Shown here piece after piece: positions 26,577-40,539 of a stretch of DNA of 44,745 bases (its first letter is position 1; each line of letters opens with the position of its first letter). Source of the stretch: an uncultured SAR116 cluster alpha proteobacterium (GTDB lineage Bacteria; Pseudomonadota; Alphaproteobacteria; Puniceispirillales; Marisalimonadaceae). Location of the stretch: NCBI GenBank assembly GCA_902623995.1, contig CACNWE010000013.1, forward strand, positions 1-44,745, in the 5' to 3' direction. The notes under the pieces are model-generated. The model was not told where the DNA came from. It worked only from the letters and a program-made list of their open reading frames with translations, and made no database searches. A program made the position numbers and the translations under genes.

Positions 26577-28979
26577 ATGAGGGATATAATCTTGACTAGT
26601 ATAACATACCCAATCTTACCATTAAGAGACATCGTCATTTTCCCAAATATGATAGCTCCATTATTTGTAGGTAGGCTAAAGTCGATAAATGCTCTTGAAA
26701 GCGTTATGGAAGAAAACAAAGAAATAGTTTTACTAACTCAAAAAAAATCTTCAACAGAAGATCCTAGTGCTAAAGACCTATTCAACATGGGTACTTTAGG
26801 AACAATTTTACAAATGTTAAAGTTACCTGATGGTACGGTTAAAGTGTTAGTAGAAGGGAAATTCAGGTGTAAGATTGAAGAAATAATTTCGGCAGATGAT
26901 TATTTAAGCGCAAAATTAAACGTTATCAAAGCTGATATTTCACAAAAAAATAATGACCATAACATAATAAATAATTTAAAAAACACCTTTGAAAAATTTT
27001 CCAAACTCAATAGTAAAATTAACTCAGATATTTTATCAACAATATCTGAAATTAATAACGAAGATGTTTTATCCGATACAATTGTTAATCATCTAGTTTT
27101 TTCAATTAATGAAAAACAATCTTTTTTAGAAATGACTGATCCGGTCGAAAGGGTTAAAAATCTATCCTTAAAAATTGAAAAAGAAATTGAGATACTTAGC
27201 TCAGAAAGAAAGATTAGAAGTAATGTAAAAAAACAAATGGAAAAAACACAGAGGGAGTATTACTTAAACGAACAATTAAAAGCTATTCAAAAAGAACTTG
27301 GAACTTCTGAGGATGGCAAAAATGAATTTGACGAATTTGAAGATAAAATTAATAAAGCAAAGTTAAGTAAAGAAGCTAAAGACAAGGCTTTATCTGAGTT
27401 AAAAAAATTAAAAAATATGAGTCCAATGAGTGCTGAAGCTACAGTTGTTAGGTCATATATAGATTGGTTGATTTCTATTCCATGGAAGAAAACAAATAAA
27501 GTAAAATCTGATATTGTAAATGCTAGAAAAATTTTAGATGCTGATCACTATGGTCTAGATAAAGTTAAAGATAGAATTATTGAGTTCCTTGCTGTTCAAA
27601 AAAGAACAAATGAAATTAAAGGTCCAATTTTGTGTTTGGTTGGTCCACCAGGTGTTGGTAAAACTTCATTGGGAAAATCGATTGCAGAAGCTACTGGCAG
27701 ACAATATATCAGAATGGCTTTAGGTGGAGTTCGTGATGAGGCAGAAATAAGAGGACATAGAAGAACTTATATCGGATCATTACCAGGTAAAATAATACAT
27801 GGCATGAAAAAATCATCATCAGTTAACCCATTGTTTTTACTTGATGAAATAGATAAATTAGGTAATGATTATAGAGGAGATCCTTCTTCAGCTTTATTAG
27901 AAGTTTTAGATCCAGAACAAAACAAAACATTTCAAGATCATTACCTTGAAGTTGATTATGACTTATCAAAAGTTTTCTTTGTAACAACCGCTAACACACT
28001 AAATATGCCTCAAGCTTTGTTAGATAGGATGGAAGTTATTAGATTATCTGGGTACACGGAAGATGAAAAGCTAGAAATTGCTAAAAGGCACTTGTTAAAA
28101 AAACAAATGGATAATTGCAAACTTAAAAATACAGAATTTTCAATCAATGAAGAAGCTCTAAAAATGATTATTCAATCCTACACCAGAGAAGCAGGTGTTC
28201 GAAATTTAGAAAGACAATTAGCTAAATTAATAAGAAAAGTTGTAACCTTAATTGAAAAAAATGAAGCAAAATTAATTTCCGTAACTAAAAATAATTTGCC
28301 TGATTTACTTGGGATTCCCATTTATCAAAGACTTGAGATAGAAAAAGATGATTTAGTTGGAATTACAACTGGATTGGCATGGACCGAGGTTGGTGGCGAA
28401 CTTTTATCGATAGAGGCTGTAAAAGTTAAAGGTAAAGGTAAGGTGTCTGCAACTGGAAAACTTGGTGATGTTATGAAAGAGTCAGTTAAAGCTGCTGAAT
28501 TTTTTATTAGATCAAATGCTTTTTCTTTTGGTTTAGATCCTTTTGATATTGAAAAACTTGATGTTCATGTTCACGTTCCTGAAGGTGCAACCCCTAAGGA
28601 TGGTCCATCTGCAGGTGTTGCTATGGTTACAAGTATAGTATCAGCTTTGACAGATATAAAAGTTAAAAAATCTGTTGGTATGACTGGTGAAATCACTTTA
28701 AGAGGAAGGGTATTACCTATTGGTGGTTTAAAAGAAAAACTATTAGCAGCAAAAAGAGGTGGTATTGAAACAGTTATAATTCCAGAAGATAATAAAAAAG
28801 ATCTTATTGATATACCGGATAATATTAAAAATAAGTTAAAAATTATTCCAGTTAATTCTATAGACGAGGTCATTGAAAATGCTTTAGTTGATACTCCTCA
28901 AGAGTTAAGTGTATTAGATGCTAGTAAAATAAATAAAAATGATAGTAATAATCAAAATAAATCTAGCATTTCTCATTAA
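26577..28979 (+). CDS. lon: ATP-dependent Lon protease
   Basis: Single-chain AAA+ protease that removes misfolded and regulatory proteins. It has an N-terminal substrate domain (P-I-L-P-L-R-D-I-V-I-F-P near the start), a coiled-coil linker, Walker A G-P-P-G-V-G-K-T and Walker B F-L-L-D-E-I-D-K, and a C-terminal protease domain with a Ser-Lys dyad: Ser in P-K-D-G-P-S-A-G and Lys 43 residues later in G-L-K-E-K-L, the canonical spacing. The ATG at 26577 gives 800 residues; an in-frame TTG at 26565 would add four. Neither has a clear Shine-Dalgarno site. The C-terminus ends in a low-complexity N/S/K tail. hupB follows after about 105 bases. Confidence 0.96.
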   Translation: MRDIILTSITYPILPLRDIVIFPNMIAPLFVGRLKSINALESVMEENKEIVLLTQKKSSTEDPSAKDLFNMGTLGTILQMLKLPDGTVKVLVEGKFRCKIEEIISADDYLSAKLNVIKADISQKNNDHNIINNLKNTFEKFSKLNSKINSDILSTISEINNEDVLSDTIVNHLVFSINEKQSFLEMTDPVERVKNLSLKIEKEIEILSSERKIRSNVKKQMEKTQREYYLNEQLKAIQKELGTSEDGKNEFDEFEDKINKAKLSKEAKDKALSELKKLKNMSPMSAEATVVRSYIDWLISIPWKKTNKVKSDIVNARKILDADHYGLDKVKDRIIEFLAVQKRTNEIKGPILCLVGPPGVGKTSLGKSIAEATGRQYIRMALGGVRDEAEIRGHRRTYIGSLPGKIIHGMKKSSSVNPLFLLDEIDKLGNDYRGDPSSALLEVLDPEQNKTFQDHYLEVDYDLSKVFFVTTANTLNMPQALLDRMEVIRLSGYTEDEKLEIAKRHLLKKQMDNCKLKNTEFSINEEALKMIIQSYTREAGVRNLERQLAKLIRKVVTLIEKNEAKLISVTKNNLPDLLGIPIYQRLEIEKDDLVGITTGLAWTEVGGELLSIEAVKVKGKGKVSATGKLGDVMKESVKAAEFFIRSNAFSFGLDPFDIEKLDVHVHVPEGATPKDGPSAGVAMVTSIVSALTDIKVKKSVGMTGEITLRGRVLPIGGLKEKLLAAKRGGIETVIIPEDNKKDLIDIPDNIKNKLKIIPVNSIDEVIENALVDTPQELSVLDASKINKNDSNNQNKSSISH

Positions 28980-29084
28980 TTATCTGTTTTTTTTAATTCT
29001 TTACCACAATTAGCTTTATTTTCTAGTGTTATAAGGTAAAATCGGTTAGGTTAACTTAATTACTAACATAATACGGAGGTACGA

Positions 29085-29357
29085 ATGAATAAAAATGAAT
29101 TAGTTGCAAGTGTTGCTGACGCGTCAGGTCTTTCAAAAGTAGATGCTGCAAAAGCAGTTGATGGAGTTTTTGAGTCAATCACCAGTGCTTTAAAATCAGG
29201 TGGTGATGTGCGTATAGTTGGTTTTGGAACTTTTTCTGTTGCTAACCGTGCCGCTACAACAGGTAGAAATCCTAGAACAGGTGAAACAATTCAAATTAAA
29301 GCATCTAAGCAACCTAAATTCAAGGCTGGAAGTCCTTTAAAGGCTGCTGTTAATTAA
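29085..29357 (+). CDS. hupB: DNA-binding protein HU
   Basis: Small histone-like protein that bends and compacts DNA. At 90 residues it shows the full HU pattern: an N-terminal helical dimerisation half (M-N-K-N-E-L-V-A-S-V-A) and the signature G-F-G-T-F-S-V-A-N-R-A-A-T-T-G-R-N-P-R-T-G with its DNA-intercalating proline arm. GGAGGT lies five bases before the ATG, the best ribosome binding site in the window, as expected for an abundant protein. The position after lon is conserved in proteobacteria. Its terminator lies inside the 3' end of the convergent methyltransferase gene. Confidence 0.96.
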   Translation: MNKNELVASVADASGLSKVDAAKAVDGVFESITSALKSGGDVRIVGFGTFSVANRAATTGRNPRTGETIQIKASKQPKFKAGSPLKAAVN

Positions 29358-29358
29358 A

Positions 29359-29904
29359 TTAAACTTTAGTTTTATTAATAAGGCGTCTTTTTAAAGACGC
29401 CTTTTTAAAACTTGCCATTTGTTTTACAGATATATATTTACCCTTAATTTTACCGTCGTAAAAACTTAATGGTAAAAGTTTTTCTCCGAAAATATCTAAT
29501 AATTCTGCATCTTTAAGTAAGTAGTTTGGATTTTGAGGTGATCCGTATTTCTCATTTCCTAACGAAAAGGTTTCGTAAAATAAATAACCATCATTTTTAA
29601 TTAAACTTATTAATTTTTTAATTTTAGGTCTGTACAAATAGTTGACAACAATAATTACATCATAAAATTGATTAACTAATGGCCATTCTTCTGTGGTTTC
29701 GAGATCAAAGCATATTGTATTAATGTTATTTAAATTCTTATACTTATCTAATTTTTTTTGATCTTTATCGATAGCTGTTACAATAATGTTTTTGTTTAAT
29801 AGTGGAATGCAATTTCTACCATTTCCAGAAGCAAAGTCTAAAAGATTTATTTTTTTCTTAATCCTTAGAGCTTCTATTTGATTCAAAATCCATTCAGAGT
29901 GCAT
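29359..29904 (-). CDS. small class I SAM-dependent methyltransferase
   Basis: Rossmann-type methyltransferase of about 181 residues with the SAM-binding motif I L-L-D-F-A-S-G-N-G-R-N, an acidic ribose-binding end of strand 2 (A-I-D-K-D) and motif-like Y-D-V-I-I-V-V-N-Y-L. The layout resembles tellurite-resistance/TehB-like or small-molecule methyltransferases; the substrate is unknown. A TTG at 29925 also opens the frame, but the ATG at 29904 has AGGA nine bases upstream and is preferred. The stop is one base from the hupB stop, and the last codons (K-K-A-S-L-K-R-R-L-I) coincide with the hupB terminator hairpin on the opposite strand. Confidence 0.8.
   Translation of the reverse strand: MHSEWILNQIEALRIKKKINLLDFASGNGRNCIPLLNKNIIVTAIDKDQKKLDKYKNLNNINTICFDLETTEEWPLVNQFYDVIIVVNYLYRPKIKKLISLIKNDGYLFYETFSLGNEKYGSPQNPNYLLKDAELLDIFGEKLLPLSFYDGKIKGKYISVKQMASFKKASLKRRLINKTKV
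29380..29407 (+). terminator. intrinsic terminator of hupB, inside the opposing gene
   Basis: Perfect 11-bp stem AAGGCGTCTTT / AAAGACGCCTT (29380-29390 and 29393-29403) followed by T residues on the plus strand, 22 bases after the hupB stop. All of it lies within the coding sequence of the minus-strand methyltransferase. Confidence 0.85.
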
Positions 29905-29956
29905 TAAAAGAAATCCTATTTTCAAAATTTTATTTATTAAATATTTAAGTTACTTA

Positions 29957-29985
29957 TTGTCTTTGCTAAAAAAATTACGTATAAG
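29957..29985 (+). promoter_or_regulatory. promoter of tRNA-Val
   Basis: TTGTCT (29957-29962), exactly 17 bases, then TATAAG (29980-29985); transcription would start near 29992, six bases before the mature tRNA 5' end. Confidence 0.55.
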
Positions 29986-29997
29986 TTTTTTTGCAAA

Positions 29998-30073
29998 GGG
30001 CGGTTAGCTCAGTTGGTAGAGCATCTCGTTTACACCGAGAGGGTCGGCGGTTCGAGACCGTCACCGCCCACCA
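29998..30073 (+). tRNA. tRNA-Val (TAC)
   Basis: 76-nt cloverleaf: acceptor GGGCGGT pairs with ACCGCCC, anticodon stem TCTCG/CGAGA encloses TTTACAC with anticodon TAC, the T loop is TTCGAGA, and CCA is encoded. Confidence 0.95.
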
Positions 30074-30167
30074 AATTTTCACATTTTTAAAATAATTCTA
30101 TAATAGTTATTATATAGTTATTGTTGTTCATTCGTACTTAAATAATATTAATTAGTGGAGAAGATAA

Positions 30168-30887
30168 ATGTCAATTTCAAAAATGCCAATTTGTATGATT
30201 ACTGGTTTAGGTGAAGGTACAGGAGGGCATACTGCGAGGAGGTTTGCAAAGGCTGGATATAGATTAGCAATGATAGCAAGAACTGAGGAAAGATTAAGAA
30301 AATTTGAAAAAGAATTGCCTGGTTCTAAAGGATATGTCTGTGATGTATCTGATTTAAAACAATTAGAGGATGTATGTAAAAAAATTAAAAATGAAATGTC
30401 AGCTCCAGAAGTTCTAATTCATAATGCAGTAAAAGGTAACTTTGAATACTTATTAAAAGGTAAACCAGAGTGGTTAGAAAAAAATTTCAGAATTAATACA
30501 ACATCACTTATGTATTTATCCCACTTTTTGATACCAGACATGTTAGAAAATAAAAAAGGGGTTATTATTGTAACTGGTAATACTGCCGCACATAGAGGTG
30601 TAGCTATGACACCATATTTTGCTCCTACTAAAGCTGCCCAAAGAATACTTGCACAATCATTAGCTAGGGATTTTGGTCCTCAAGGTATTCATGTTGCTTA
30701 TATCACTATTGATGCATCAATTAATACTCCGTGGACTAGAGGTAGAATAGAGCACCAAAAAAATAAAAATGATATTGAATTTGTTCAACCACAAGATATA
30801 GCTGAAGAAATTTTTAGAATATCACAACAGAAGCGTTCTGCATGGTCGTTTGATGTAGAGTTAAGACCTGATATAGAAAAATGGTAA
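30168..30887 (+). CDS. SDR-family oxidoreductase lacking the usual catalytic tyrosine
   Basis: Short-chain dehydrogenase/reductase fold of 239 residues: glycine-rich cofactor loop T-G-L-G-E-G-T-G-G (12-20), an R-T-E segment after strand 2 (NADP preference likely) and the H-N-A motif (85-87, for N-A-G). At the active site the YxxxK motif reads F151-A-P-T-K155: the lysine is kept but the tyrosine is phenylalanine, with a tyrosine one residue earlier (Y150). Atypical SDRs with an F-A-x-x-K motif exist in proteobacteria with unknown function. The ATG has GGAG eight bases upstream. Convergent with the ferredoxin reductase, one base apart. Confidence 0.82.
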   Translation: MSISKMPICMITGLGEGTGGHTARRFAKAGYRLAMIARTEERLRKFEKELPGSKGYVCDVSDLKQLEDVCKKIKNEMSAPEVLIHNAVKGNFEYLLKGKPEWLEKNFRINTTSLMYLSHFLIPDMLENKKGVIIVTGNTAAHRGVAMTPYFAPTKAAQRILAQSLARDFGPQGIHVAYITIDASINTPWTRGRIEHQKNKNDIEFVQPQDIAEEIFRISQQKRSAWSFDVELRPDIEKW

Positions 30888-30888
30888 T

Positions 30889-31665
30889 TCAACCTACAAA
30901 AGCCTTCTCTAAAACAAATTCCCCAGGATGATTATTTGCACCTTCACGGAAATTATTTTCTAACATGATTTTTTTAAGGTCATTGTTTAACCCCATTGAC
31001 CCACAAAACATGAATCTATCATTAGATGAAATTGAATTTATTTTTAAGTCATTAAATAATTTATTTGATAATATAAGTTCTGTAATTCTGCCATTGAAAA
31101 TATAATCATCTCTTGTCGTAGAATGATAACTTAATAATTTATTATTTATAAATTCTTGAAGTAATTCATCATCCTTACATTCTTGAATTTTACTTTGACT
31201 ATAAGATAGTTCAGTAATCGTTCTACATGTATGTGTTACGATTATACTCTCAAATCTTTCATAAGTTTCAGGCTCTCTTATAAGTGCTGCAAATGGAGCA
31301 AACCCTGTTCCTGAGGAAAGTAAAAACAATCTTTTTCCAGGTCTTAATGCATCTAAAACTAATGTGCCTGTAGATTTCGGAATCACAATAACTTCATCAC
31401 CAATTTTTATATTTTTTAATTTTGAAGTTAGAGGTCCATCTTTTACAATAATTGAATAAAACTCTAACTCTTCAGACCAGCTTGGTGAGCAAATAGAATA
31501 AGCCCGTAATATTGGTTTATCATTACTATCAACAAGGCCTATCATGACAAACTCGCCTGATCTGAACTTAAAACCTTTTGGTCGGGTAATACAAAAAGAA
31601 AATAAATTTTCACTCCAATGTTTGATAAATGTAACTTTTTGAAAATTTTTTGAAAAATTTGACAA
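30889..31665 (-). CDS. fpr: ferredoxin--NADP+ reductase
   Basis: FAD enzyme passing electrons between NADPH and ferredoxin or flavodoxin; often linked to oxidative stress or Fe-S needs. The 258-residue protein has the FAD motif R-A-Y-S-I-C-S-P, the NADP-binding S-S-G-T-G-F-A-P-F and the bacterial subclass C-terminus ending in F-V-L-E-K-A-F-V-G. The start is TTG at 31665 with AGGA about six bases upstream. It is followed downstream by the convergent SDR gene and preceded, 20 bases upstream, by the epimerase-like gene on the same strand. Confidence 0.92.
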   Translation of the reverse strand: MSNFSKNFQKVTFIKHWSENLFSFCITRPKGFKFRSGEFVMIGLVDSNDKPILRAYSICSPSWSEELEFYSIIVKDGPLTSKLKNIKIGDEVIVIPKSTGTLVLDALRPGKRLFLLSSGTGFAPFAALIREPETYERFESIIVTHTCRTITELSYSQSKIQECKDDELLQEFINNKLLSYHSTTRDDYIFNGRITELILSNKLFNDLKINSISSNDRFMFCGSMGLNNDLKKIMLENNFREGANNHPGEFVLEKAFVG

Positions 31666-31685
31666 ATTTTTATCCTAGGTGAAAA

Positions 31686-32513
31686 TCAACCATTATCTAA
31701 TAATGATTTAGTCAAGCCAAGTAAAGCTAATTTATAATCAGGATATTTGAATTGATAACTAATCTTGTGATTAATAATATTACTTTTTACAGTCCTACTT
31801 ACTTCATAGAAGGTCTTTAATATTTTAGATACTTTTTTAGAATCATACCTTACAACTTTTGGTTCAACTAAATTTAATTCATTACAAACAAATTTTATAG
31901 CATCATAATTACTTATTTTTTTCTGATCACTTATATTTAAAATTTTTTCTTTGCAGTTGTTTTTAAAAAATTGAAGAGTTAATGAAGACAAGTCTTCTAC
32001 ATGTATTCTGTTTGAGATATAATCTTTTTTAACAATAATTTCATTATCTCCTTTGAGATATTTGATCATAGGATGTCTATCGGGACCATAAATACCTGAT
32101 ATTCTAAAAATTGACGTATTTGGATTTGCTTTAATCCATTCTTTCTCGCAACAAAGCCTTATTAAACCTCTTTTAAATTTTGGTGATGGTATTGAATTCT
32201 CATTTACTACACCACTTCCATAAACTGATGTGGCAGAGTAATAAATAATAACATTTTTATTTAAAGAAATTGATTCCCTATATTTTTTTAAAACAGGATC
32301 TAAACCTGCATCATTGAATGGCACAGTTGAAACAACATTCTCATTTGTTAATTTTTTTTCAACATTATTGGTATCAAAGAAATTTAGGTAATGTATATTT
32401 TTTTCGGGATTTGCAATATTTCTTGTAATAATTGAAACATCACAACCATATCTTAGGGCGTCTTTAGCTAAATATTGGGCACTATAGCCATTTCCAATAA
32501 TTGTTAATTTCAT
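31686..32513 (-). CDS. NAD(P)-binding epimerase-like protein (extended SDR, YeeZ-like)
   Basis: A 275-residue Rossmann protein with an N-terminal M-K-L-T-I-I-G-N-G-Y-S-A dinucleotide loop, a Y-Y-S-A-T-S-V-Y-G segment containing the active-site-like Ser/Tyr of extended SDRs, and F-R-I-S-G-I-Y-G-P typical of nucleotide-sugar epimerase relatives. The substrate is unknown; the glycine-poor loop resembles the YeeZ group. The ATG has no Shine-Dalgarno; a TATAAA about ten bases upstream suggests a very short or leaderless mRNA. It probably forms an operon with fpr. It diverges from the cobalamin riboswitch. Confidence 0.75.
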   Translation of the reverse strand: MKLTIIGNGYSAQYLAKDALRYGCDVSIITRNIANPEKNIHYLNFFDTNNVEKKLTNENVVSTVPFNDAGLDPVLKKYRESISLNKNVIIYYSATSVYGSGVVNENSIPSPKFKRGLIRLCCEKEWIKANPNTSIFRISGIYGPDRHPMIKYLKGDNEIIVKKDYISNRIHVEDLSSLTLQFFKNNCKEKILNISDQKKISNYDAIKFVCNELNLVEPKVVRYDSKKVSKILKTFYEVSRTVKSNIINHKISYQFKYPDYKLALLGLTKSLLDNG

Positions 32514-32529
32514 TATTAATTTTTTATAC

Positions 32530-32559
32530 TTGCATTTTTTGTGTAATTAAATCTAATAG
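32530..32559 (+). promoter_or_regulatory. candidate promoter of the B12 riboswitch transcript
   Basis: TTGCAT (32530-32535) and TAATAG (32554-32559) separated by 18 bases, placing the start near 32566, just before the first recognisable riboswitch stem. Confidence 0.35.
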
Positions 32560-32567
32560 TAACTGTT

Positions 32568-32810
32568 TATGGTGCTTCGAAGATTTCTTCAAGCTTAAAA
32601 TGGGAATTTGGTAATTCTATAAAGTTATAAGCCAAAGCTGTCCCCGCAACTGTAAATGCTGAGTAAGGGCTCTAATACCACTGGAAATTTTCTGGGAAGG
32701 TTGCCTAAACATTGAAGCATAAGCCAGGAGACCTGCCATAGACTGTCGCTTTGTCAACTTCCGGGTGAGTAGATGGCACGTGCAATATTAATCGTCTAGC
32801 GACTAAATTT
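32568..32810 (+). promoter_or_regulatory. cobalamin (AdoCbl) riboswitch
   Basis: The 339-base gap before the TonB receptor holds a classic B12 aptamer. In order: GGTGCTTCG near 32571, ATGGGAATTTGGT, the conserved CCCCGCAACTGTAA (32642-32655), ACCACTGG, CTGGGAAGGTTGCC, and the B12 box AGCCAGGAGACCTGCC (32722-32737). Past the box, GTCGCT (32745-32750) can pair with AGCGAC (32798-32803), which is followed by A/T-rich sequence with six T residues, a possible expression platform; the downstream ribosome binding site AGGGGG at 32842 could be an alternative target. Expected effect: cobalamin represses the downstream receptor and membrane protein. Confidence 0.93.
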
Positions 32811-32852
32811 TTTGAGTTTAAGCTCTATAACTTACTTTGCTAGGGGGTCAAT

Positions 32853-34820
32853 GTGGCATACGTAATTATCTTCTTAATTTCCATTTTGTTAAATATTTCA
32901 AATTCTTTTTCAAATAATGAAAAACCTATTCGCATTTCAATTTATCCTACAATTATTGAAAGAGGCATTGTTGGAAGTTCTACTAAAATAATAAATTACA
33001 AAACCATTAGTAATTCGTCATATAAAACACTTGGTGACTTATTATCAAAACATTCAGGCATTTTTTTTGAAAATTTATATTACGGAATGGACGCAAAATC
33101 GACTGTAAGAATGAGAGGTTTTGGTGAGCAAGCATCGAGAAATATTATGATACTTGTAGATGGCGTTCGATTATCTGATATGACTATTGCTGGTGCAAAT
33201 TTATCAAGAATACCAATTGACAATATTCACGAAATCCAAATTTTAAAAGGTGGGTCTTCCACTGTTATTCATGGAGATGGAGCTGTTGGAGGTTCAATTA
33301 ATATTATTACCAAAAATCCAAATTATTTAAAAGATGATGTTAAAATTAAATCATCTTTTAAATCCTTTAATACAAAAGAAAATTCTATTTCAATTAATAA
33401 AAATATAAACGATTTTATTCTACAGACATTTGCATCAACTACTGACAGTAAAGGTTACCGAGAAAACAATAAGTTTGAAAATGATACATTTCAATTTAAT
33501 TTATCTTATTTAAAAGATCCTCTGAACAGATACTCTACCATCATTAATTACTCTGACGAATATACTGGCTTACCTGGTAGTATAACATTAACTGATTTTT
33601 ATACTCGTCCTAGGTTTGTTAGATCAGGTTCTATCGACAGTTTTGCAGAAGAAAAAATTCAATCATGGAAATTAAATAATGAGAAAAAAATTACAAGAGG
33701 TAAAGCTCTAACAACAATTAAATATGAAGAAAAAGATCAAAAAACTTCATCGATGTATAGTGGAGTGAATATTAAAGCAAAAACTGACTTGAGCACTTAC
33801 ACTTTGAGCTCCAAATTAAACAAAAAATTTACATACAATAATCTTTACATGGATACTAACATAGGTTTTGACCATTATAATTCAACTTATAGAGCCATAG
33901 GTAATAATTGGGCTGGGACACCTTATCATAACATTGCTTCTCAAAAAATAGTTGAACCCTTTGGTTTGATAAAATTTTCAAATATAACTAACCCTAATAT
34001 TGAATATGAGGCTGGTTTTAGACAACACTATTACGATTTAGATGCTGACAATTATACAAACAAAAGTAGTTTATTGTCTAGAGGAAGACAAAATTATGCT
34101 TGGTCACTTGGTTTTAACTATAATTTAGACAATAATAAAAATTTTTTTGGTCATGTTGCAAGGTCATACAGATCACCGAGATTAGATGAAATAATTTCTC
34201 TAGTTAATCCTAACCCAACATCTACTGATATTAAACATCAATACTCTTATGATATTGAAATTGGTCATGAAATAAAATTGAATAACACAAATTATAGCAT
34301 AGCTTTATTTAGATCACTTATCAAAAATCAAATAGTCTATAATTCTGCTGCATTTGCTAACCAAAATTTTGATCCCTCTATTCATCAAGGTATCGAGTTA
34401 GAATTCGACAGATTAATTAACCCAAATCTTAAATTAGTTTCAAATTTGAATTATATTGACTCATATTTCACAAAAGGAGTTGAAAAAGGTAATCAGACAC
34501 CGTACGTGCCAAGAATATCTGGAAATTCTTCCATTTATTATAACTTTGACAACAAAACTGATTTCTCACTTGATTACAAATATATTGGTAAAAAAAGATC
34601 CGGTAATGACCCCAATTATATATTATCCAAATCTAAGTCTTATCAAGTTATAGATTTTAGCGTTAAACGTAAGACAAAAAATTTTATCATTAAAGGATCG
34701 ATTAACAATTTATTAGATAAAAGATATTATACAAACTTAATTAAAAGTTATGATGATAAATCGTATGTTTATCCGCAACCTGGAAGAACTTTATTTTTAG
34801 GTTTAGAGGTTAAATTTTAA
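32853..34820 (+). CDS. btuB: TonB-dependent outer-membrane receptor, probably for cobalamin
   Basis: Outer-membrane beta-barrel for energised uptake. GTG start at 32853, five bases after AGGGGG; an overlapping ATG at 32851 runs into a stop after four codons. A signal peptide (I-I-F-L-I-S-I-L-L-N core) is followed by the plug domain with V-R-M-R-G-F-G, I-L-V-D-G-V-R, the P-I-D-N-I-H-E-I-Q-I-L-K-G-G-S-S-T segment and G-G-S-I-N-I-I-T, then a long barrel ending in an aromatic F (L-E-V-K-F). At 655 residues the size fits BtuB. Substrate assignment rests on the upstream cobalamin riboswitch, not on sequence identity. I see no clear TonB box. No tonB, exbB or exbD is in the window. Confidence 0.88.
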   Translation: MAYVIIFLISILLNISNSFSNNEKPIRISIYPTIIERGIVGSSTKIINYKTISNSSYKTLGDLLSKHSGIFFENLYYGMDAKSTVRMRGFGEQASRNIMILVDGVRLSDMTIAGANLSRIPIDNIHEIQILKGGSSTVIHGDGAVGGSINIITKNPNYLKDDVKIKSSFKSFNTKENSISINKNINDFILQTFASTTDSKGYRENNKFENDTFQFNLSYLKDPLNRYSTIINYSDEYTGLPGSITLTDFYTRPRFVRSGSIDSFAEEKIQSWKLNNEKKITRGKALTTIKYEEKDQKTSSMYSGVNIKAKTDLSTYTLSSKLNKKFTYNNLYMDTNIGFDHYNSTYRAIGNNWAGTPYHNIASQKIVEPFGLIKFSNITNPNIEYEAGFRQHYYDLDADNYTNKSSLLSRGRQNYAWSLGFNYNLDNNKNFFGHVARSYRSPRLDEIISLVNPNPTSTDIKHQYSYDIEIGHEIKLNNTNYSIALFRSLIKNQIVYNSAAFANQNFDPSIHQGIELEFDRLINPNLKLVSNLNYIDSYFTKGVEKGNQTPYVPRISGNSSIYYNFDNKTDFSLDYKYIGKKRSGNDPNYILSKSKSYQVIDFSVKRKTKNFIIKGSINNLLDKRYYTNLIKSYDDKSYVYPQPGRTLFLGLEVKF

Positions 34821-34864
34821 CAAACATATTGTGTTTAATAACTTATTTGGTTTATATAGATAAT

Positions 34865-35377
34865 ATGAATAAAAGTTATATTGTTAGAAATTTTTTAATA
34901 TTTTTAGGCTGCGTAAGTTTTGTACTTATTTTTCGTTTAATTCCTCACCCACCAAATTTCACACCAGTAATTGCTCTTAGTTTATATCTGCCTTTTATGT
35001 TTGGTGTTTGGTCTATACCTTTTTGTATACTTGGTTTTGCTATAACCGACTATTTTATTGGATTTCACAACCTATTGATTTGGACGTGGGTTGCTTTAGC
35101 TTTTACAGGATATACTTCTAAATTTTGCAAAAAAATGTTTTCAAGAATAGTTTTAAGTTTTATTGGTGCCATTACTTTTTTTATTGTTTCTAATTTCGGT
35201 GTATGGATTTCTGGTTCATATTATGAAATTTCTACCCAAGGTTTATGGAACTGTTATGTAATGGCTATTCCATTTTTCACTAACACGTTATTAAGTACTT
35301 TCCTTTTTGCAGTAATTTTTGAATTATTTATTTCAAGTAAATTTTATTATTTAATTCCAAATTTCTACAAAAAATAA
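34865..35377 (+). CDS. small polytopic membrane protein (DUF6580-like), candidate B12 inner-membrane carrier
   Basis: A 170-residue protein with about five hydrophobic helices and a loop R-L-I-P-H-P-P-N-F-T-P-V near the N-terminus, a motif I associate with the DUF6580 family of putative transport proteins. Size and helix number resemble ECF S-components such as the solitary B12 carrier BtuM. The frame opens with a TTG at 34829, but the ATG at 34865 is preferred because it leaves the charged M-N-K-S before the first helix. It lies 44 bases downstream of the riboswitch-controlled receptor on the same strand, with no terminator between, so it should share B12 control. The transport role is inference from context. 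Confidence 0.7.
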   Translation: MNKSYIVRNFLIFLGCVSFVLIFRLIPHPPNFTPVIALSLYLPFMFGVWSIPFCILGFAITDYFIGFHNLLIWTWVALAFTGYTSKFCKKMFSRIVLSFIGAITFFIVSNFGVWISGSYYEISTQGLWNCYVMAIPFFTNTLLSTFLFAVIFELFISSKFYYLIPNFYKK

Positions 35378-35413
35378 TAAAACTTTTTCAAGCATAAATT
35401 AATTATTCTTTTC

Positions 35414-35442
35414 TTGACCAAAACTTTATCTACCTCTATCAA
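35414..35442 (+). promoter_or_regulatory. promoter of tRNA-Asp
   Basis: TTGACC (35414-35419), 17 bases, then TATCAA (35437-35442), with the tRNA 5' end 20 bases downstream. The -35 is identical to that proposed for tRNA-Leu. Confidence 0.45.
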
Positions 35443-35461
35443 GTATTTATAACCTTTTTTT

Positions 35462-35538
<77 letters not shown>

Positions 35539-35579
35539 TTTTATTAAGTTTTAAATCAAAAATAGAATAATATTAATTT

Positions 35580-36587
35580 TTAATATGATTTGTTCTTTAT
35601 AAAATAGTCCATTCTGTCTACTGACTTCACATTAAATTTAACTTTTTTCTTATCTCTAATTATTTCAAGTTGTATATTAACTCCTATATCTCCTGAATTC
35701 CAAATTGACTTATAAAATTTTTTTACACTACTTACATAATTTCCATTAACTGCATGTATTATATCATTCTTTCTTATGCCAGATATATCTGAAGGTCCAC
35801 CCTTACTTACTCTAGTGACAATAACTTGACCTGAAGAATCATTAGTTGAAATTCCTAAATATGGTTTCATACCTGATTTTGGACGACCATATTTTTTAAG
35901 ATCATTTAAAATTGGCTTTAGGAGGTTTATTGGCACAAACATATTTCCAGGTGTTATAGTACCGGGGGAGGCTGCGTCAGCAACAAAAAGGGAGCCTATA
36001 CCTAATATTTCCCCATCAGAATTAACAAGAGGAGCTCCAGCCCAAGATTGATTCATAGGTAGTGTATAAATTGGTTTTTTCAAGAAATATTCCCACCAAC
36101 CTACAAAAGGTCTTCTTGAGACCATTTTAGCCATTGATCCAATTCCTTTATTAGGTGAGGGAAGAATTAACAAAACATCATCTAATTCAATTTTATCTGA
36201 ATTACCAATTTTTAGCGGAATTAAATTGGCTTTAATTATAGGTGAAACTATTCCAAATCCCGATGAGTGGTCATATCCAGTCAATCTACCAGGTATTTTT
36301 TTCCCATTAGGCAGTCCTATTTTTATGTCGCTTGCTTCAATAACGATGTAACCGATAGTGAGAATATTATTTTGGTCAATTATGACACCGCTCCCTTGAC
36401 GAACTGTGCCAAGACTTTTTGACGTTCTTGCTTCATCAGGAATTATTGTGTCAATACTTACTACTCCATTATAAAAATTTTGAATTTTATCTTTTGTTAA
36501 AGATGATTGATCTGCATATACAATTGAAGATACAAAAAATAATGATATAAAAAAATATTTTTGACAAATACGAAATATATATACCAA
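35580..36587 (-). CDS. HtrA/S1C-like periplasmic protein with PDZ domain, catalytic triad apparently lost
   Basis: The 335-residue protein has a signal peptide (hydrophobic core about 11-23, likely cut after V-Y-A), a trypsin-like domain (about 40-230) and a C-terminal PDZ domain (about 245-325, P-Y-L-G-I-S and G-G-P-S-D-I-S-G-I-R-K-N-D-I-I). It aligns with DegP/DegS landmarks (G-S-G-V-I-I-D; M-N-Q-S-W-A-G-A-P-L-V-N against I-N-P-G-N-S-G-G-P-L-V-N), yet all three catalytic residues differ: His to Tyr80, Asp to Gly110 and Ser to Ala183. It is therefore probably a pseudoprotease: a scaffold, chaperone or sensor. The start is TTG at 36587, six bases after GGGGG. It stands alone. Confidence 0.82.
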   Translation of the reverse strand: MVYIFRICQKYFFISLFFVSSIVYADQSSLTKDKIQNFYNGVVSIDTIIPDEARTSKSLGTVRQGSGVIIDQNNILTIGYIVIEASDIKIGLPNGKKIPGRLTGYDHSSGFGIVSPIIKANLIPLKIGNSDKIELDDVLLILPSPNKGIGSMAKMVSRRPFVGWWEYFLKKPIYTLPMNQSWAGAPLVNSDGEILGIGSLFVADAASPGTITPGNMFVPINLLKPILNDLKKYGRPKSGMKPYLGISTNDSSGQVIVTRVSKGGPSDISGIRKNDIIHAVNGNYVSSVKKFYKSIWNSGDIGVNIQLEIIRDKKKVKFNVKSVDRMDYFIKNKSY

Positions 36588-36748
36588 ATTACACCCCCAT
36601 TAAGTATGATGTAATACAAAATCTACGAGTGGCTATTACAATTTGAATCATAAAATATATTTAATAAATAAAGCAAGGAATTTTAAATTTAATGAATTGC
36701 TTTTTAACTTGTTAATAACTAAAACTATTAAATCATAATTAACTTAAA

Positions 36749-37177
36749 ATGATGGCAAATATGAAGCTTCAATTACACCACATAAATTTGTCCACTGATA
36801 AAGTAGATGAAATGAATGAATTTTATTTAAATGTTATGAAACTTAAAACAGAAACTGAAGGATTACCTGTTTTAGAGAAGGAAAAAGGTTATTCTGGAGA
36901 CGTGGCTTTTGTATCAGACGGTAAAATACAAACACATTTGGCAGAAAAAGATTTAGATGTTTGTTTTAAAACTGGTCATACAATAAATCCACTTGAAAAA
37001 GGTCATATAGCTTATCGAACAGATGACTTAGAAGCTTTTAAAAAACATTTAAATGAATTAAACATCAATTTTTCAGATTGGGGTAAGACTGCAGTAGCAG
37101 GATGGAAACAAATATTTTTTCACGATCCAGATGGAAATGTAATTGAAGTTCACGAAATAGAACAAACACAACGTTAA
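36749..37177 (+). CDS. VOC-superfamily (glyoxalase/dioxygenase-like) protein
   Basis: A 142-residue vicinal-oxygen-chelate protein: paired beta-alpha-beta-beta-beta modules beginning L-H-H-I-N-L-S (first metal-ligand His) and ending F-F-H-D-P-D-G-N-V-I-E-V-H-E (last Glu ligand region). A second His lies in K-G-H-I-A-Y-R. The metal-site pattern fits a glyoxalase I-like or dioxygenase-like enzyme, but substrate is unknown. Three in-frame ATGs occur (36749, 36752, 36761) and no Shine-Dalgarno site is visible, so the exact start is open. It precedes the MFS gene by 39 bases and could be co-transcribed with it. Confidence 0.82.
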   Translation: MMANMKLQLHHINLSTDKVDEMNEFYLNVMKLKTETEGLPVLEKEKGYSGDVAFVSDGKIQTHLAEKDLDVCFKTGHTINPLEKGHIAYRTDDLEAFKKHLNELNINFSDWGKTAVAGWKQIFFHDPDGNVIEVHEIEQTQR

Positions 37178-37216
37178 ATCATAATTTTAAGATCATTATC
37201 AGAATGGCAGTCAAAT

Positions 37217-38398
37217 TTGAAAAAACCCAATATTAATTTGTTGGCAGTAATTGTTGCTTTACCAGTAATTGGAATGACAATTATAGCGCCTGCTTTAACT
37301 ATTATAAAGAATGATCTCAATATATCTTTTGAACATACACAATTAATTTTAACATTATATTTTACTTTCCTAGCTTTTGGTCAAATACTGTCTGGTCCTC
37401 TTTCTGATAAATATGGAAGAAAACCAATTTTAATCTTGGGAGCCTCCATCTACTCAATTTCTGCTTTTTTTGCATTTTTATCATCTAATATAGAAATTTT
37501 ATTAATACTTAGATGTTTTCAAGGATTTGGTGCTGCAGCATGTTTATCTGTTGGAAGAACTATTTTAAGTGATTGTTATGAGATAAAAGAGGCGGCAAAG
37601 GAAATGTCAAAAATGACAGCTATAATGGCAGTCATTCCAATTTCTTGTTTTATCTTTGGAGGATTTCTTGCCGAATTTTTAGGCTGGAGAACTAATTTAC
37701 TCGCTTTAGGATTAATAAGTCTAATTTTGATAATAGCTATGTCATTTTTATTAAATGAGACATTAATAAAAAAAGCTAAAAGTATAAGTTTTAAAAATAT
37801 GTTTATAGTTTATGAAAGATTATTAAGGAACTTTTCTTTTAATTTTTTTACGATAACTACTGCAATGCAGACTTCAATGTTCTTTGCAATGAATGGTTTC
37901 ATGCCATATGAGTTTGAAAGAAAAGGAGTTAGTATGTCAGAGTTTGGAATATGGTTTTCGTTTACATCTTTTGGATATATTTTTGGAAATATTATAAATA
38001 GCCAATTAAGTCCAAAAGTGGGTTTGGAAAGAATGTGTCTATTGGGAACAGTTTGCTCTTTTTGCACAGTATTAATATTTTTTGGGAATTATAATTTATT
38101 CCAAAATGGTCCTCTTGTTTTATCATTAATCTGTATGTTGTTTGGATGTTCAAATGGCTTCGCAGTAGCAAATAGTATGACTGGGGCAATAAATTCATCT
38201 AAACTAAACAAAGGTGCAGCCAGTGGTTTAATGGGTGCTTTTCAAGTTGGTTCGGGGGGGCTAGCTGGTTTCCTTATAATATATTTTGGAGGAGCTCAAA
38301 ATTTTAATATATGTCTATATGCATTATTTATTATGTCAGGTATTTCGATAATATCCTCTTATCTAATATTACAAATAAAAAAAATGAGTATTATATAA
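37217..38398 (+). CDS. MFS transporter, Bcr/CflA-like drug:H+ antiporter family
   Basis: A 393-residue inner-membrane protein with about 12 helices. MFS motif A is G-P-L-S-D-K-Y-G-R-K-P in the loop after helix 2, and the helix 4 region reads L-R-C-F-Q-G-F-G-A-A-A-C. This matches the Bcr/CflA branch of 12-helix efflux carriers; export of a metabolite rather than a drug is quite possible given its neighbours. The start is a TTG at 37217; a nearby ATG at 37204 is in another frame and stops early. The stop codon is immediately followed by the ATG of the amidohydrolase, so the two are translated together. Confidence 0.85.
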   Translation: MKKPNINLLAVIVALPVIGMTIIAPALTIIKNDLNISFEHTQLILTLYFTFLAFGQILSGPLSDKYGRKPILILGASIYSISAFFAFLSSNIEILLILRCFQGFGAAACLSVGRTILSDCYEIKEAAKEMSKMTAIMAVIPISCFIFGGFLAEFLGWRTNLLALGLISLILIIAMSFLLNETLIKKAKSISFKNMFIVYERLLRNFSFNFFTITTAMQTSMFFAMNGFMPYEFERKGVSMSEFGIWFSFTSFGYIFGNIINSQLSPKVGLERMCLLGTVCSFCTVLIFFGNYNLFQNGPLVLSLICMLFGCSNGFAVANSMTGAINSSKLNKGAASGLMGAFQVGSGGLAGFLIIYFGGAQNFNICLYALFIMSGISIISSYLILQIKKMSII

Positions 38399-39331
38399 AT
38401 GTCCGGTATTCAAAATATTGAAATAGTAGACTCACATCATCATTTCTGGGATTTAGATAAGAATTATTATCCTTTCTTATGTGACAAAATAGATCCAGAT
38501 TTTTTTTTGGGTAACTACGAAATAATTAGACAAAATTATCTTCCTGTTAATTATGAAAAGGACATAATAAATCATAATGTTATTGGCACTATTCATTGTG
38601 AAGCAGAGTGGGATAGGAATGACCAAGTTGGTGAGACAAAATGGATAGAGAATTTAGCTAAGAGAAATAAATTTCCAAATGCTATTATAGGTCATGCTTG
38701 GTTCCATACAAAAAATACAGAGACAATAATCGCTGAACAAGCAAGTTTTAATATGGTTAAGAGTATACGCTCAAAACCAAATGTAAAATTTGCAAAAAAT
38801 ACTACTGATTATAAATATGATGGTTCTATGCAAGATACGAAATGGAGAAACGGTTTAAAATTACTAGAAAAATATAATTTAAATTATGATTTAAGAGTTC
38901 CTTCATGGCATTTAGTAGAAGCAGTTGAAATTGTAAGGTTAATACCAAATACTAAAGTCATTATTAATCATTGTGGTTTTCCCTGGGATAGATCTGTTGA
39001 TGGAATGGAATTTTGGCGAAAAGGGATAAAAGCATTATCCTTAGAGCCTAATACATTTATAAAATTATCTGAATTTGGCGTAAAAGGAGAGGAGTGGAAT
39101 TTAAACGAGAATGCGAGTATAATTTACGAATTAATAGATTTGTTTAGTCCCAAAAGATGTATGTTTGCAAGCAATTTTCCTGTTAGTAAACTTAAAATAA
39201 CATTTAATAATTTATTTAATAATTATAAAAAAATTGTAGAAAAATTCTCAATAGATGAGAAGAAATATTTGTTTTCAGAAACTGCCATTGAGGCTTATAA
39301 TTTAGATAAATCATTGTTAAAGAAAAATTAA
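38399..39331 (+). CDS. amidohydrolase-2 family protein (lactonase-like, COG3618 type)
   Basis: A TIM-barrel metal-dependent hydrolase of 310 residues. The N-terminal D-S-H-H-H-F-W-D motif (about 11-18) is characteristic of the COG3618 group, which includes L-fucono- and L-rhamnonolactonases; I-I-N-H-C-G in the middle and F-A-S-N-F-P-V near the C-terminus match the later strand motifs. Usual members keep an Asn/Asp there as here. The substrate is unknown; a sugar lactone would suit the sugar-acid kinase gene (dgoK) at the window end. ATG begins directly after the MFS stop, so both belong to one operon. Confidence 0.85.
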   Translation: MSGIQNIEIVDSHHHFWDLDKNYYPFLCDKIDPDFFLGNYEIIRQNYLPVNYEKDIINHNVIGTIHCEAEWDRNDQVGETKWIENLAKRNKFPNAIIGHAWFHTKNTETIIAEQASFNMVKSIRSKPNVKFAKNTTDYKYDGSMQDTKWRNGLKLLEKYNLNYDLRVPSWHLVEAVEIVRLIPNTKVIINHCGFPWDRSVDGMEFWRKGIKALSLEPNTFIKLSEFGVKGEEWNLNENASIIYELIDLFSPKRCMFASNFPVSKLKITFNNLFNNYKKIVEKFSIDEKKYLFSETAIEAYNLDKSLLKKN

Positions 39332-39405
39332 TTTCATGCACATTACTCAATAATTTAATATTATTTTTTTTTGTGTTAATTATTATATTTCATATGGAGT
39401 TATGA

Positions 39406-40539
39406 TTGAGTATTCAATTTACTGATATTGTTAATAAATTGCCAGCCTCTGTACCTTTTGTAGGTCCGGAAGCTCAAGAAAGAAGTATTGATCAACTTTT
39501 CAAAGCACGTATTGGGGCTAATGAGAGTGTTTTTGGGCCTTCAGAAAAAGCAATTTCAGCTATGAAAAAATACTTAAGTGAAGTCTGGATGTATGGTGAT
39601 CCAGAGAACTTTGATTTAAAACATGCGCTGGCAAAAAAACATAAAGTAAATTTTGAAAACATTGTTGTAGGTGAAGGAATTGATGGTTTACTTGGATATT
39701 TAGTTAGACTGATAATAGAAAAAGGGGATAATGTTGTTACTACTGATGGCGCGTATCCAACTTTTAATTATCATGTAGAGGGATTTGGAGGAAATCTACA
39801 TAAGGTACCTTTCTGTAATAACACGGAGGACTTGCATAATTTACTTGATAAAGTTAAAGAAACGTCAGCAAAGATTTTATATGTATCGAATCCTAACAAT
39901 CCGATGGGAACAGTCAATAAACTATCAGATGTTCAAACATTAATCCAGAATCTTCCAAAGACCACCTTGTTATGCTTGGATGAAGCCTATATTGATTTTG
40001 TTGATGATAATTTTGTACCTAAAATTTCATTGGACACAAAAAATGTTATAAGAATGAGAACTTTTTCAAAAGCATATGGAATGGCTGGATTAAGGGTTGG
40101 GTACGCAATAGGAGAAAAAGACTTAATCCTGAATTTTGAAAAAATAAGAAACCATTTTGGCATGTCAAGAATTTCTCAAGTAGGCGCATTAGCTGCGCTA
40201 GAAGATTATGAGTTTATCAGTGATGTAATTAATAAAGTAAAATTATCGAGAAATAGAATTGCTGAAATTGCAAATAATAATAATTGTAAATTCATTCCTT
40301 CTTTTACAAATTTTGTAGCAATTGATTGTTTAAAAGATAGTAAATTTGCAAAAAAAGTACTAGAGCATTTAATTAATAACGGTGTTTTTGTAAGAATGCC
40401 ATATTCATATCCACAAAATAGGTGTATAAGAGTGTCAGTAGGATTAGATAAAGATATTGATTTATTTGAAAAATATTTTCCGGTAGCATTAAAAGAAAAC
40501 TATTTAAAACAATATTTCTCAAATCCTAAACTGTATTGA
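39406..40539 (+). CDS. HisC-like PLP-dependent aminotransferase
   Basis: A fold-type I enzyme of 377 residues close to histidinol-phosphate aminotransferase: G-A-N-E-S-V-F-G-P-S near the N-terminus, S-N-P-N-N-P-M-G (161-168), L-D-E-A-Y-I-D-F (191-198) and Schiff-base K222 in R-T-F-S-K-A-Y-G-M-A-G-L-R-V-G-Y. HisC paralogues often act on aromatic or other amino acids, and no other his gene is near, so the true substrate is open. The start is TTG at 39406 with GGAG six bases upstream; an overlapping ATG at 39402 is out of frame. It is followed by the aldehyde dehydrogenase after 29 bases. Confidence 0.83.
   Translation: MSIQFTDIVNKLPASVPFVGPEAQERSIDQLFKARIGANESVFGPSEKAISAMKKYLSEVWMYGDPENFDLKHALAKKHKVNFENIVVGEGIDGLLGYLVRLIIEKGDNVVTTDGAYPTFNYHVEGFGGNLHKVPFCNNTEDLHNLLDKVKETSAKILYVSNPNNPMGTVNKLSDVQTLIQNLPKTTLLCLDEAYIDFVDDNFVPKISLDTKNVIRMRTFSKAYGMAGLRVGYAIGEKDLILNFEKIRNHFGMSRISQVGALAALEDYEFISDVINKVKLSRNRIAEIANNNNCKFIPSFTNFVAIDCLKDSKFAKKVLEHLINNGVFVRMPYSYPQNRCIRVSVGLDKDIDLFEKYFPVALKENYLKQYFSNPKLY

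Follow-up and report, generated by a model that had tools for sequence, protein, structure and literature searches.

How vitamin B12 crosses the inner membrane is the question raised by a short locus in a 44,745-nt stretch of DNA (the window; contig CACNWE010000013.1 of assembly GCA_902623995.1) from an uncultured SAR116 cluster alphaproteobacterium of the order Puniceispirillales. Here, a cobalamin riboswitch lies ahead of a gene encoding a TonB-dependent receptor, followed after 44 bases by a gene for a small membrane protein of the Pfam family DUF6580, and no genes for an ATP-binding cassette (ABC) transporter were seen by eye among the open reading frames of positions 28000–40000. Apart from the family assignment, all of these features, including the lack of a terminator-like site between the two genes, had been pointed out in an initial annotation and are borne out here. 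Its further proposal, a BtuM-like carrier working without the motor of energy-coupling factor (ECF) transporters, is supported apart from the name BtuM: the genomic evidence, including the absence of the motor component EcfT from 136 genomes of the order, speaks for a solitary B12 carrier. The locus is best explained as a B12-repressible uptake operon in which the DUF6580 protein is a solitary inner-membrane carrier of B12 (probability roughly 0.8). Our observations support the link of DUF6580 to B12 regulation, uptake and use, its mutual exclusion with B12 synthesis in the order, its exchange in place with btuFCD, and the absence of EcfT.

A cobalamin riboswitch locus with exchangeable cargo

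The aptamer matches the cobalamin riboswitch family with 112.9 bits (gathering score 31.5), and a B12-box without mismatches starts at about position 32723, as found by a regular-expression scan. The small protein belongs to DUF6580 (PF20221; 95.8 bits, cut-off 27, E 4.2e-27), listed in Pfam as a family of unknown function; a comparison with this family had been suggested in the initial annotation, and the motif R-x-I-P-H-P-P-N-F-T-P noticed there reads R-L-I-P-H-P-P-N-F-T-P.

Among the 136 genomes of the order returned by our search and scanned with profiles and covariance models, 49 contain DUF6580 and 94 the riboswitch family RF00174. Of the 49 DUF6580 matches, 46 share a contig with a cobalamin riboswitch and lie 1,903–2,726 nt downstream of it, 43 of them on the same strand. 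The exceptions are G065, where the contig starts inside a gene reading by eye as the receptor, G013 and G097. In a sample of 378 genomes of the phylum, four scored above the DUF6580 cut-off, one of them the window's own, each with a riboswitch match 1.95–2.13 kb upstream on the same strand, the one in G494 scoring 26.7 bits and hence below the gathering score; two DUF6580 matches under the cut-off, G410 (internal stops) and G259 (partial), were left aside. Because the arrangement recurs for 46 of 49 matches in the order and in all four genomes of the phylum sample, we regard it as beyond chance. The survey of co-occurrence proposed in the initial annotation therefore turned out in its favour here, and across phyla it did so for roughly one in two of the sampled loci.

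DUF6580 and B12 synthesis exclude each other. The synthesis marker cbiC (PF02570) is present in 44 of the 136 genomes and overlaps with DUF6580 in one, G097 (Fisher p 7e-10 on raw counts, not corrected for kinship). The DUF6580 fragment of G097 sits on a 3-kb contig, which we take as a foreign contaminant, judging by sequence, because its two neighbouring genes are 98–99% identical to those of a genome of another family (G005) and the genome has 7% contamination. The 94 riboswitch genomes divide into 47 with DUF6580, 32 with cbiC, none with both and 15 with neither. Eleven of these 15 have a strong FecCD permease match (E 3.7e-16 or better, found in 32 genomes of the order), and in six of the 11 permease and riboswitch share a strand and are 2.9–3.0 kb apart, none of the six having DUF6580. 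As for the remaining four, the contigs of G067 and G069 end after or within the receptor gene, that of G086 ends after the receptor and an apparent BtuF start (by eye), and the riboswitch of G070 lies amid genes read by eye as B12 genes.

What replaces what can be seen in shared surroundings. In G107 (locus L051), the order is TrxB, two genes, riboswitch, receptor, Peripla_BP_2 protein (in the position of BtuF), FecCD, ATPase, an epimerase-like gene and aldolase, with TrxB, ATPase, epimerase and aldolase named by eye. G063 (locus L035), 100% complete and without any FecCD match, keeps this gene order with DUF6580 in place of the three transporter genes; the flanking genes share 35–79% identity and the receptors 35%. 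Another DUF6580 locus, L142 of G094, gives a similar picture. In addition, G016, a congener of the window's organism with cbiC and without a DUF6580 match, retains the three genes to the left of the window's locus (91, 78 and 58% identity), whereas the place taken in the window by receptor and DUF6580, behind the riboswitch, is filled by a CobN/Mg-chelatase gene, cbiC and others (L039 1–10000, contig G016:C26). Since the flanks are shared between L051 and L035, and between the window and G016, while the cargo differs, the cargo of one riboswitch locus can be of three kinds: the receptor with DUF6580, the receptor with btuFCD, or synthesis genes.

The coordinates of the window locus are given in Table 1. 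The leader between aptamer and receptor gene has a predicted fold of -32.4 kcal/mol, which taken alone does not differ significantly from chance (z -1.29); because the AGGGGG ahead of the receptor's GTG is base-paired in this fold, the leader would act by translational control. The gap between the two genes folds indistinguishably from chance (z -0.03), and the single terminator-like site in positions 32400–35650 compares with a mean of 0.9 in shuffled sequences. A promoter scan gave 19 sites against 20.5 expected, i.e., no signal over chance, and the repeats likewise held nothing distinguishable from chance. The mechanically called small open reading frame begins at a TTG at 34829; the ATG used here yields the 170-residue protein and the 44-base gap.

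Table 1. Features of the window's B12 locus (positions in the window)
Feature	Position	Strand	Basis
Divergent neighbour, 275 aa, left flank	31686..32513	-	58% identity to L039 8019–8846 of congener G016
Cobalamin riboswitch aptamer	32553..32754	+	RF00174, cmscan 112.9 bits, E 1.1e-27, model 1–189 complete
Leader from aptamer to receptor start, presumed expression platform	32755..32852	+	sequence, predicted fold
TonB-dependent receptor, 655 aa, GTG start	32853..34820	+	PF00593, PF07715
44-base gap between receptor and DUF6580 genes	34821..34864	+	no terminator-like site, no unusual fold
DUF6580 protein, 170 aa, ATG start	34865..35377	+	PF20221, E 4.2e-27

Two variants of the layout were observed in the order. 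In G013 (loci L043 on G013:C34 and L044 on G013:C3), DUF6580 starts a contig at its very edge, and riboswitch and receptor are on another contig, inverted and beside genes that in the window are found on the other side of the locus; this is either a rearrangement or a misassembly between the two genes. In family f2 (G003–G005), one extra gene stands between the receptor and DUF6580 genes and on the other strand (L036 4457–5155, L037 4176–4859, L038 3045–3662); it is of TonB type in L036, the one tested against PF03544, which might hint at an energiser dedicated to the receptor.

DUF6580 beyond the order

A pattern scan of genome contigs yielded at least 587 relatives, the best 80 of which make up our cross-phylum sample; it is not a random one, and its hosts include Patescibacteria, Bacteroidota, Ignavibacteriota and Pelagibacteraceae. 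RNA families were scanned in 71 of the 80 loci (all except L055, L063, L080, L087, L094, L095, L104, L114 and L128), and in L063, L070, L086, L092, L098 and L122 DUF6580 was read from a tblastn frame, where neighbouring genes may be missed. B12 riboswitches (RF00174 or the AdoCbl-II class, RF01689) were found in 33 of the 71 scanned loci, in 22 of them upstream of DUF6580 on the same strand within 4 kb; L055 (G066:C14), which has a riboswitch by the scan of the order, is outside this count. A specific B12 gene (adenosyltransferase, NrdJ, MetH, mutase or BtuF-like) lies within 5 kb in 19 of the 80 loci, and 41 bear at least one of the two marks. Matches to gene seeds, receptors included, amount to 0.188 per kb within 2 kb of DUF6580 vs 0.015 per kb beyond. 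All of these gene counts, and those for Patescibacteria below, were made with seeds drawn from the same loci and include self-matches.

Some lineages stand out. All eight Pelagibacteraceae loci (L066, L068, L081, L090, L109, L132–L134) have a B12 riboswitch, of the AdoCbl-II class in L109 and L133. Seven of nine loci of Patescibacteria groups have the B12-dependent ribonucleotide reductase NrdJ together with an adenosyltransferase nearby, and NCBIfam models confirm NrdJ and PduO of L097 and CobA of L118. An AdoCbl-II riboswitch accompanies five of these seven, upstream of DUF6580 in L071, L117, L125 (barely above the gathering score) and L130, and downstream in L097. Elsewhere, DUF6580 follows an AdoCbl-II riboswitch after 23 nt in L061 and an RF00174 riboswitch after 129 nt in L108, and in L112 receptor, DUF6580 and MetH stand in one line. 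The B12-linked rows are spread widely over the family tree (built by a quick method, with many open forks and the window protein on a long branch).

Several further observations concern the neighbours. BtuF-like Peripla_BP_2 proteins are encoded near DUF6580 in L085, L086, L100, L113, L116 and L121, and ATP pyrophosphatases of the Diphthami_syn_2 family in L085, L086, L100, L113 and L115. The binding domain of the L113 protein begins at residue 13, and a signal peptide seems absent; such a protein might be a cytoplasmic cobamide-binding partner of DUF6580. The NrdJ of L097 (3146–6559, Levyibacteriota) also matches intein-containing models, and a long insert spans roughly its residues 293–650. 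With the L085 protein as query, DUF6580 was not found in plasmids.

The proposed carrier and competing explanations

The DUF6580 protein appears as a six- to seven-helix membrane protein whose predicted fold resembles that of ECF S-components, at weak E-values. The model of the window protein (from 81 sequences) has seven helices, a predicted local distance difference (pLDDT) of 89.1 and a predicted template modelling score (pTM) of 0.82; that of a second member, L084 (77 sequences), reaches 94.8 and 0.89. The top six Foldseek matches of the former are ECF S-components (E 0.4–1.2, TM-score 0.56–0.61), as are the top seven of the latter (E 0.2–0.8, TM-score 0.36–0.58), counting 4huq_S, which is titled only "a transporter". 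At the level of sequence, weak Pfam matches occurred among the 81 members to PF07155 (ECF-ribofla_trS, 7/81) and PF12822 (2/81), and the profile of the 81-sequence family alignment (A2), searched against PDB chains at E up to 10, had 6fnp_A as its sole match (E 0.064, profile positions 5–87); profile A1 had no match. We take chain A of 6fnp, with 182 residues, to be CbrT from its size and name, and the solved structure of BtuM was presumably present in the PDB copy searched. NCBI labels such proteins putative transport proteins.

Nine residues are conserved in all 81 sequences (R24, N31, G66, F105, N110, W114, Y120, G126 and F137), H28 and D62 in 80, H68 in 71 and C130 in 63; a cysteine aligned with C130 is present in all 11 sequences of the order alignment. 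A further alignment, A3, comprises 77 of the 81 sequences, omitting L105, L119, L131 and L134, which are close to others in the set. Judging by conservation, R24, H28, N31, D62, N110, W114 and Y120 are candidate contact residues, together with the less conserved H68 and C130.

These findings suggest the following mechanism. The riboswitch, by its RNA family, would sense cobalamin and lower the expression of both genes. The TonB-dependent receptor would move cobamides into the periplasm, where the DUF6580 protein would bind them and carry them alone over the inner membrane; both substrate and direction are putative. Transport would run down the gradient, probably by toppling as proposed for BtuM, and B12 would be trapped inside by adenosyltransferase and B12 enzymes. 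No other inner-membrane system would be needed. Corrinoid precursors such as cobinamide may be additional substrates.

The host itself (assembly G000; 2.08 Mb, 48 contigs, 89% complete) seems to use B12 without making it, because a protein with a B12-binding domain, reading by eye as methylmalonyl-CoA mutase, is encoded on contig C1 (compare L104) and cbiC was not found in the genome with profile PF02570. The assignment of the receptor to B12 is based on the riboswitch upstream. Its Pfam matches are PF00593 (E 7e-26) and PF07715 (E 3.9e-16), and the solved chains nearest to it are YncD and a pyrroloquinoline quinone transporter. A receptor for pyrroloquinoline quinone, which the latter suggested, was dropped given the riboswitch and the exchange with btuFCD.

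Several results weigh against a B12 carrier function, or against extending it to the whole family. The main one, directed against a uniform function of DUF6580, is that 39 of the 80 loci have neither a B12 riboswitch nor a specific B12 gene, seven of these 39 being unscanned for RNA (L055 included) and five having a receptor within 2.5 kb. They include a Bacteroidales group, whose neighbouring genes resemble branching enzymes by eye, and a seven-row SAR86 clade of the tree that is wholly unlinked (L057, L059, L065, L069, L075, L083, L093). Of the 35 riboswitch matches in the scanned loci, 28 are within 3 kb of DUF6580 and seven at a greater distance, and for some the true target may be another gene. 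The riboswitch cannot control DUF6580 in G003–G005, L066 and L068, where the two are encoded on opposite strands. The receptor is, by sequence, not a textbook BtuB: it matches the TonB-B12 model TIGR01779 with E 9.8e-27 and 93.7 bits, against a cut-off of 599.7, and its best NCBIfam match, TIGR01783, is likewise under its cut-off. The S-component matches that lead both Foldseek lists have weak E-values (0.2–1.2), none reaching 0.001; the match to 6fnp_A carries a large composition bias; and unrelated membrane families gave weak Pfam matches as well, e.g., FUSC_2 in 6 of 81 members. Lastly, 13 of the 49 DUF6580 genomes in the order, including the host, have a strong FecCD match elsewhere.

The SAR86 clade has surroundings of its own. 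DUF6580 is near GltX-like and alpha/beta-hydrolase-like genes (names by eye) in six of the seven loci, and in L057 an IMES-1 RNA (RF02034, 123 bits) lies nearby at 9066–9258.

The FecCD matches bear on an alternative in which DUF6580 has an accessory role only, the passage of B12 over the inner membrane being the task of a FecBCD-type ABC importer encoded elsewhere. The host indeed holds such a system, with FecCD, a Peripla_BP_2 protein and an ATPase (by eye) together on contig C5 (L045 7056–10272). Nevertheless, none of the 13 FecCD systems is on the contig of the riboswitch, no RF00174 match was found around the host's system in L045, and strong FecCD was not found in the other 36 of the 49 genomes, many of them incomplete. 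Among the more complete DUF6580 genomes, FecCD is absent from G063 (100% complete) and G009 (95%), and G049 (100%) and G066 (99%) have weak matches only. We therefore consider an accessory role unlikely. The initial annotation had named btuBFCD genes under the same riboswitch as evidence to the contrary; no second operon of this kind was seen in the host assembly (89% complete), which has one cobalamin riboswitch, and the FecCD-type ABC system that does exist is on another contig, with no riboswitch found around it. Within this C5 system a small DUF1636-like gene was observed, with Fur-like and CobW-like genes adjoining (all three by eye).

The fold and the weak sequence likeness to ECF S-components would also fit a role of DUF6580 as S-component in an ECF transporter, its motor having escaped notice. 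EcfT (PF02361), however, was found in none of the 136 genomes of the order, with the same search positive in 10 of 14 control genomes, and in only three of 51 DUF6580 genomes of other groups (48 from the 80 loci, plus three). The search is lenient, since it also matches E. coli, which encodes no ECF module according to passages of PMC6072759. An overlooked motor of the known kind is thus very improbable; a motor made from an unrelated membrane protein is conceivable.

Cobalamin riboswitches also control cobalt transporters, and the small protein could accordingly feed B12 synthesis by importing cobalt or a corrin precursor instead of cobamides. This we consider extremely unlikely: with the contaminant contig set aside, none of the 44 cbiC genomes of the order has DUF6580, and elsewhere the family stands beside receptors, adenosyltransferase, NrdJ and MetH. 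Cobalt import was rejected on the grounds of this mutual exclusion with cbiC.

Beyond the solitary B12 carrier of the window, a wider proposal is slightly favoured over its negation: DUF6580 would be a widespread family of motor-less S-components and would provide the missing inner-membrane import of B12 in many lineages (SAR116, SAR11, Ignavibacteria, Patescibacteria). As a module behind one and the same riboswitch, it would trade places with btuFCD or an entire synthesis operon; it would rely on metabolic trapping, with its conserved histidine, not the cysteine of BtuM, meeting the corrinoid.

Relation to known B12 transporters

Our literature search found no paper containing DUF6580 or PF20221 and, judged largely from listings and passages, none naming the family as a B12 transporter. 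Two papers use the name BtuN for a B12 transporter or receptor gene without giving a sequence, and an unpublished or database-only assignment of DUF6580, e.g., as BtuN, is possible. In many B12-dependent bacteria the inner-membrane importer has yet to be identified: about 10% of the organisms taking up B12 are reported to have no BtuFCD (PMC2667541), and among gut bacteria that require cobamides, roughly one in four is said to be without an identified system (PMC6977713). DUF6580 offers a testable candidate for the inner-membrane importer in marine clades and Patescibacteria. In addition, the regulation of SAR11 btuB by B12 is called unknown in a passage of PMC9296465, a question on which the B12 riboswitches of all eight Pelagibacteraceae loci bear. 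If the proposal is true, DUF6580 would be a second family of motor-less S-component-like carriers, with no sequence match to BtuM seen, and would bear on how an S-component moves its substrate without ATP.

The closest functional parallel is BtuM of Thiobacillus denitrificans, described in PMC6072759 as a solitary B12 carrier with an invariant cysteine, the ligand of cobalt, found without an ECF module; it complements an E. coli strain lacking btuF, btuC and metE. The mechanism put forward for it combines toppling and facilitated diffusion with trapping by an adenosyltransferase encoded nearby (PMC6072759), and this proposal is a natural one for DUF6580 because of the adenosyltransferase neighbours in Patescibacteria. 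Like BtuM, DUF6580 is a small membrane protein, occurs without an ECF module, and is encoded near genes for B12 uptake and adenosyltransferase; its fold may be S-component-like as well. In contrast to BtuM, with which no sequence match was seen (with an E limit of 10, 6fnp_A was all that profile A2 found among PDB chains), its best cysteine column, C130, is filled in 63 of 81 sequences and thus not invariant. DUF6580 may therefore work like BtuM, but by its sequence it is not BtuM.

CbrT is the S-component of ECF-CbrT, a cobalamin ECF transporter (6FNP); according to passages of PMC5997447, it depends on the ECF module and fails to complement by itself. DUF6580 shares with it the cobalamin context and the sole sequence match of its profile in the PDB (E 0.064), and differs in that EcfT is matched in none of the genomes of the order. 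Finally, DUF6580 resembles BtuFCD in its place in the operon, behind riboswitch and receptor and between the same flanks (L051 vs L035); unlike this three-gene system, it is one protein of about 170 residues, with neither an ATPase nor a binding protein.

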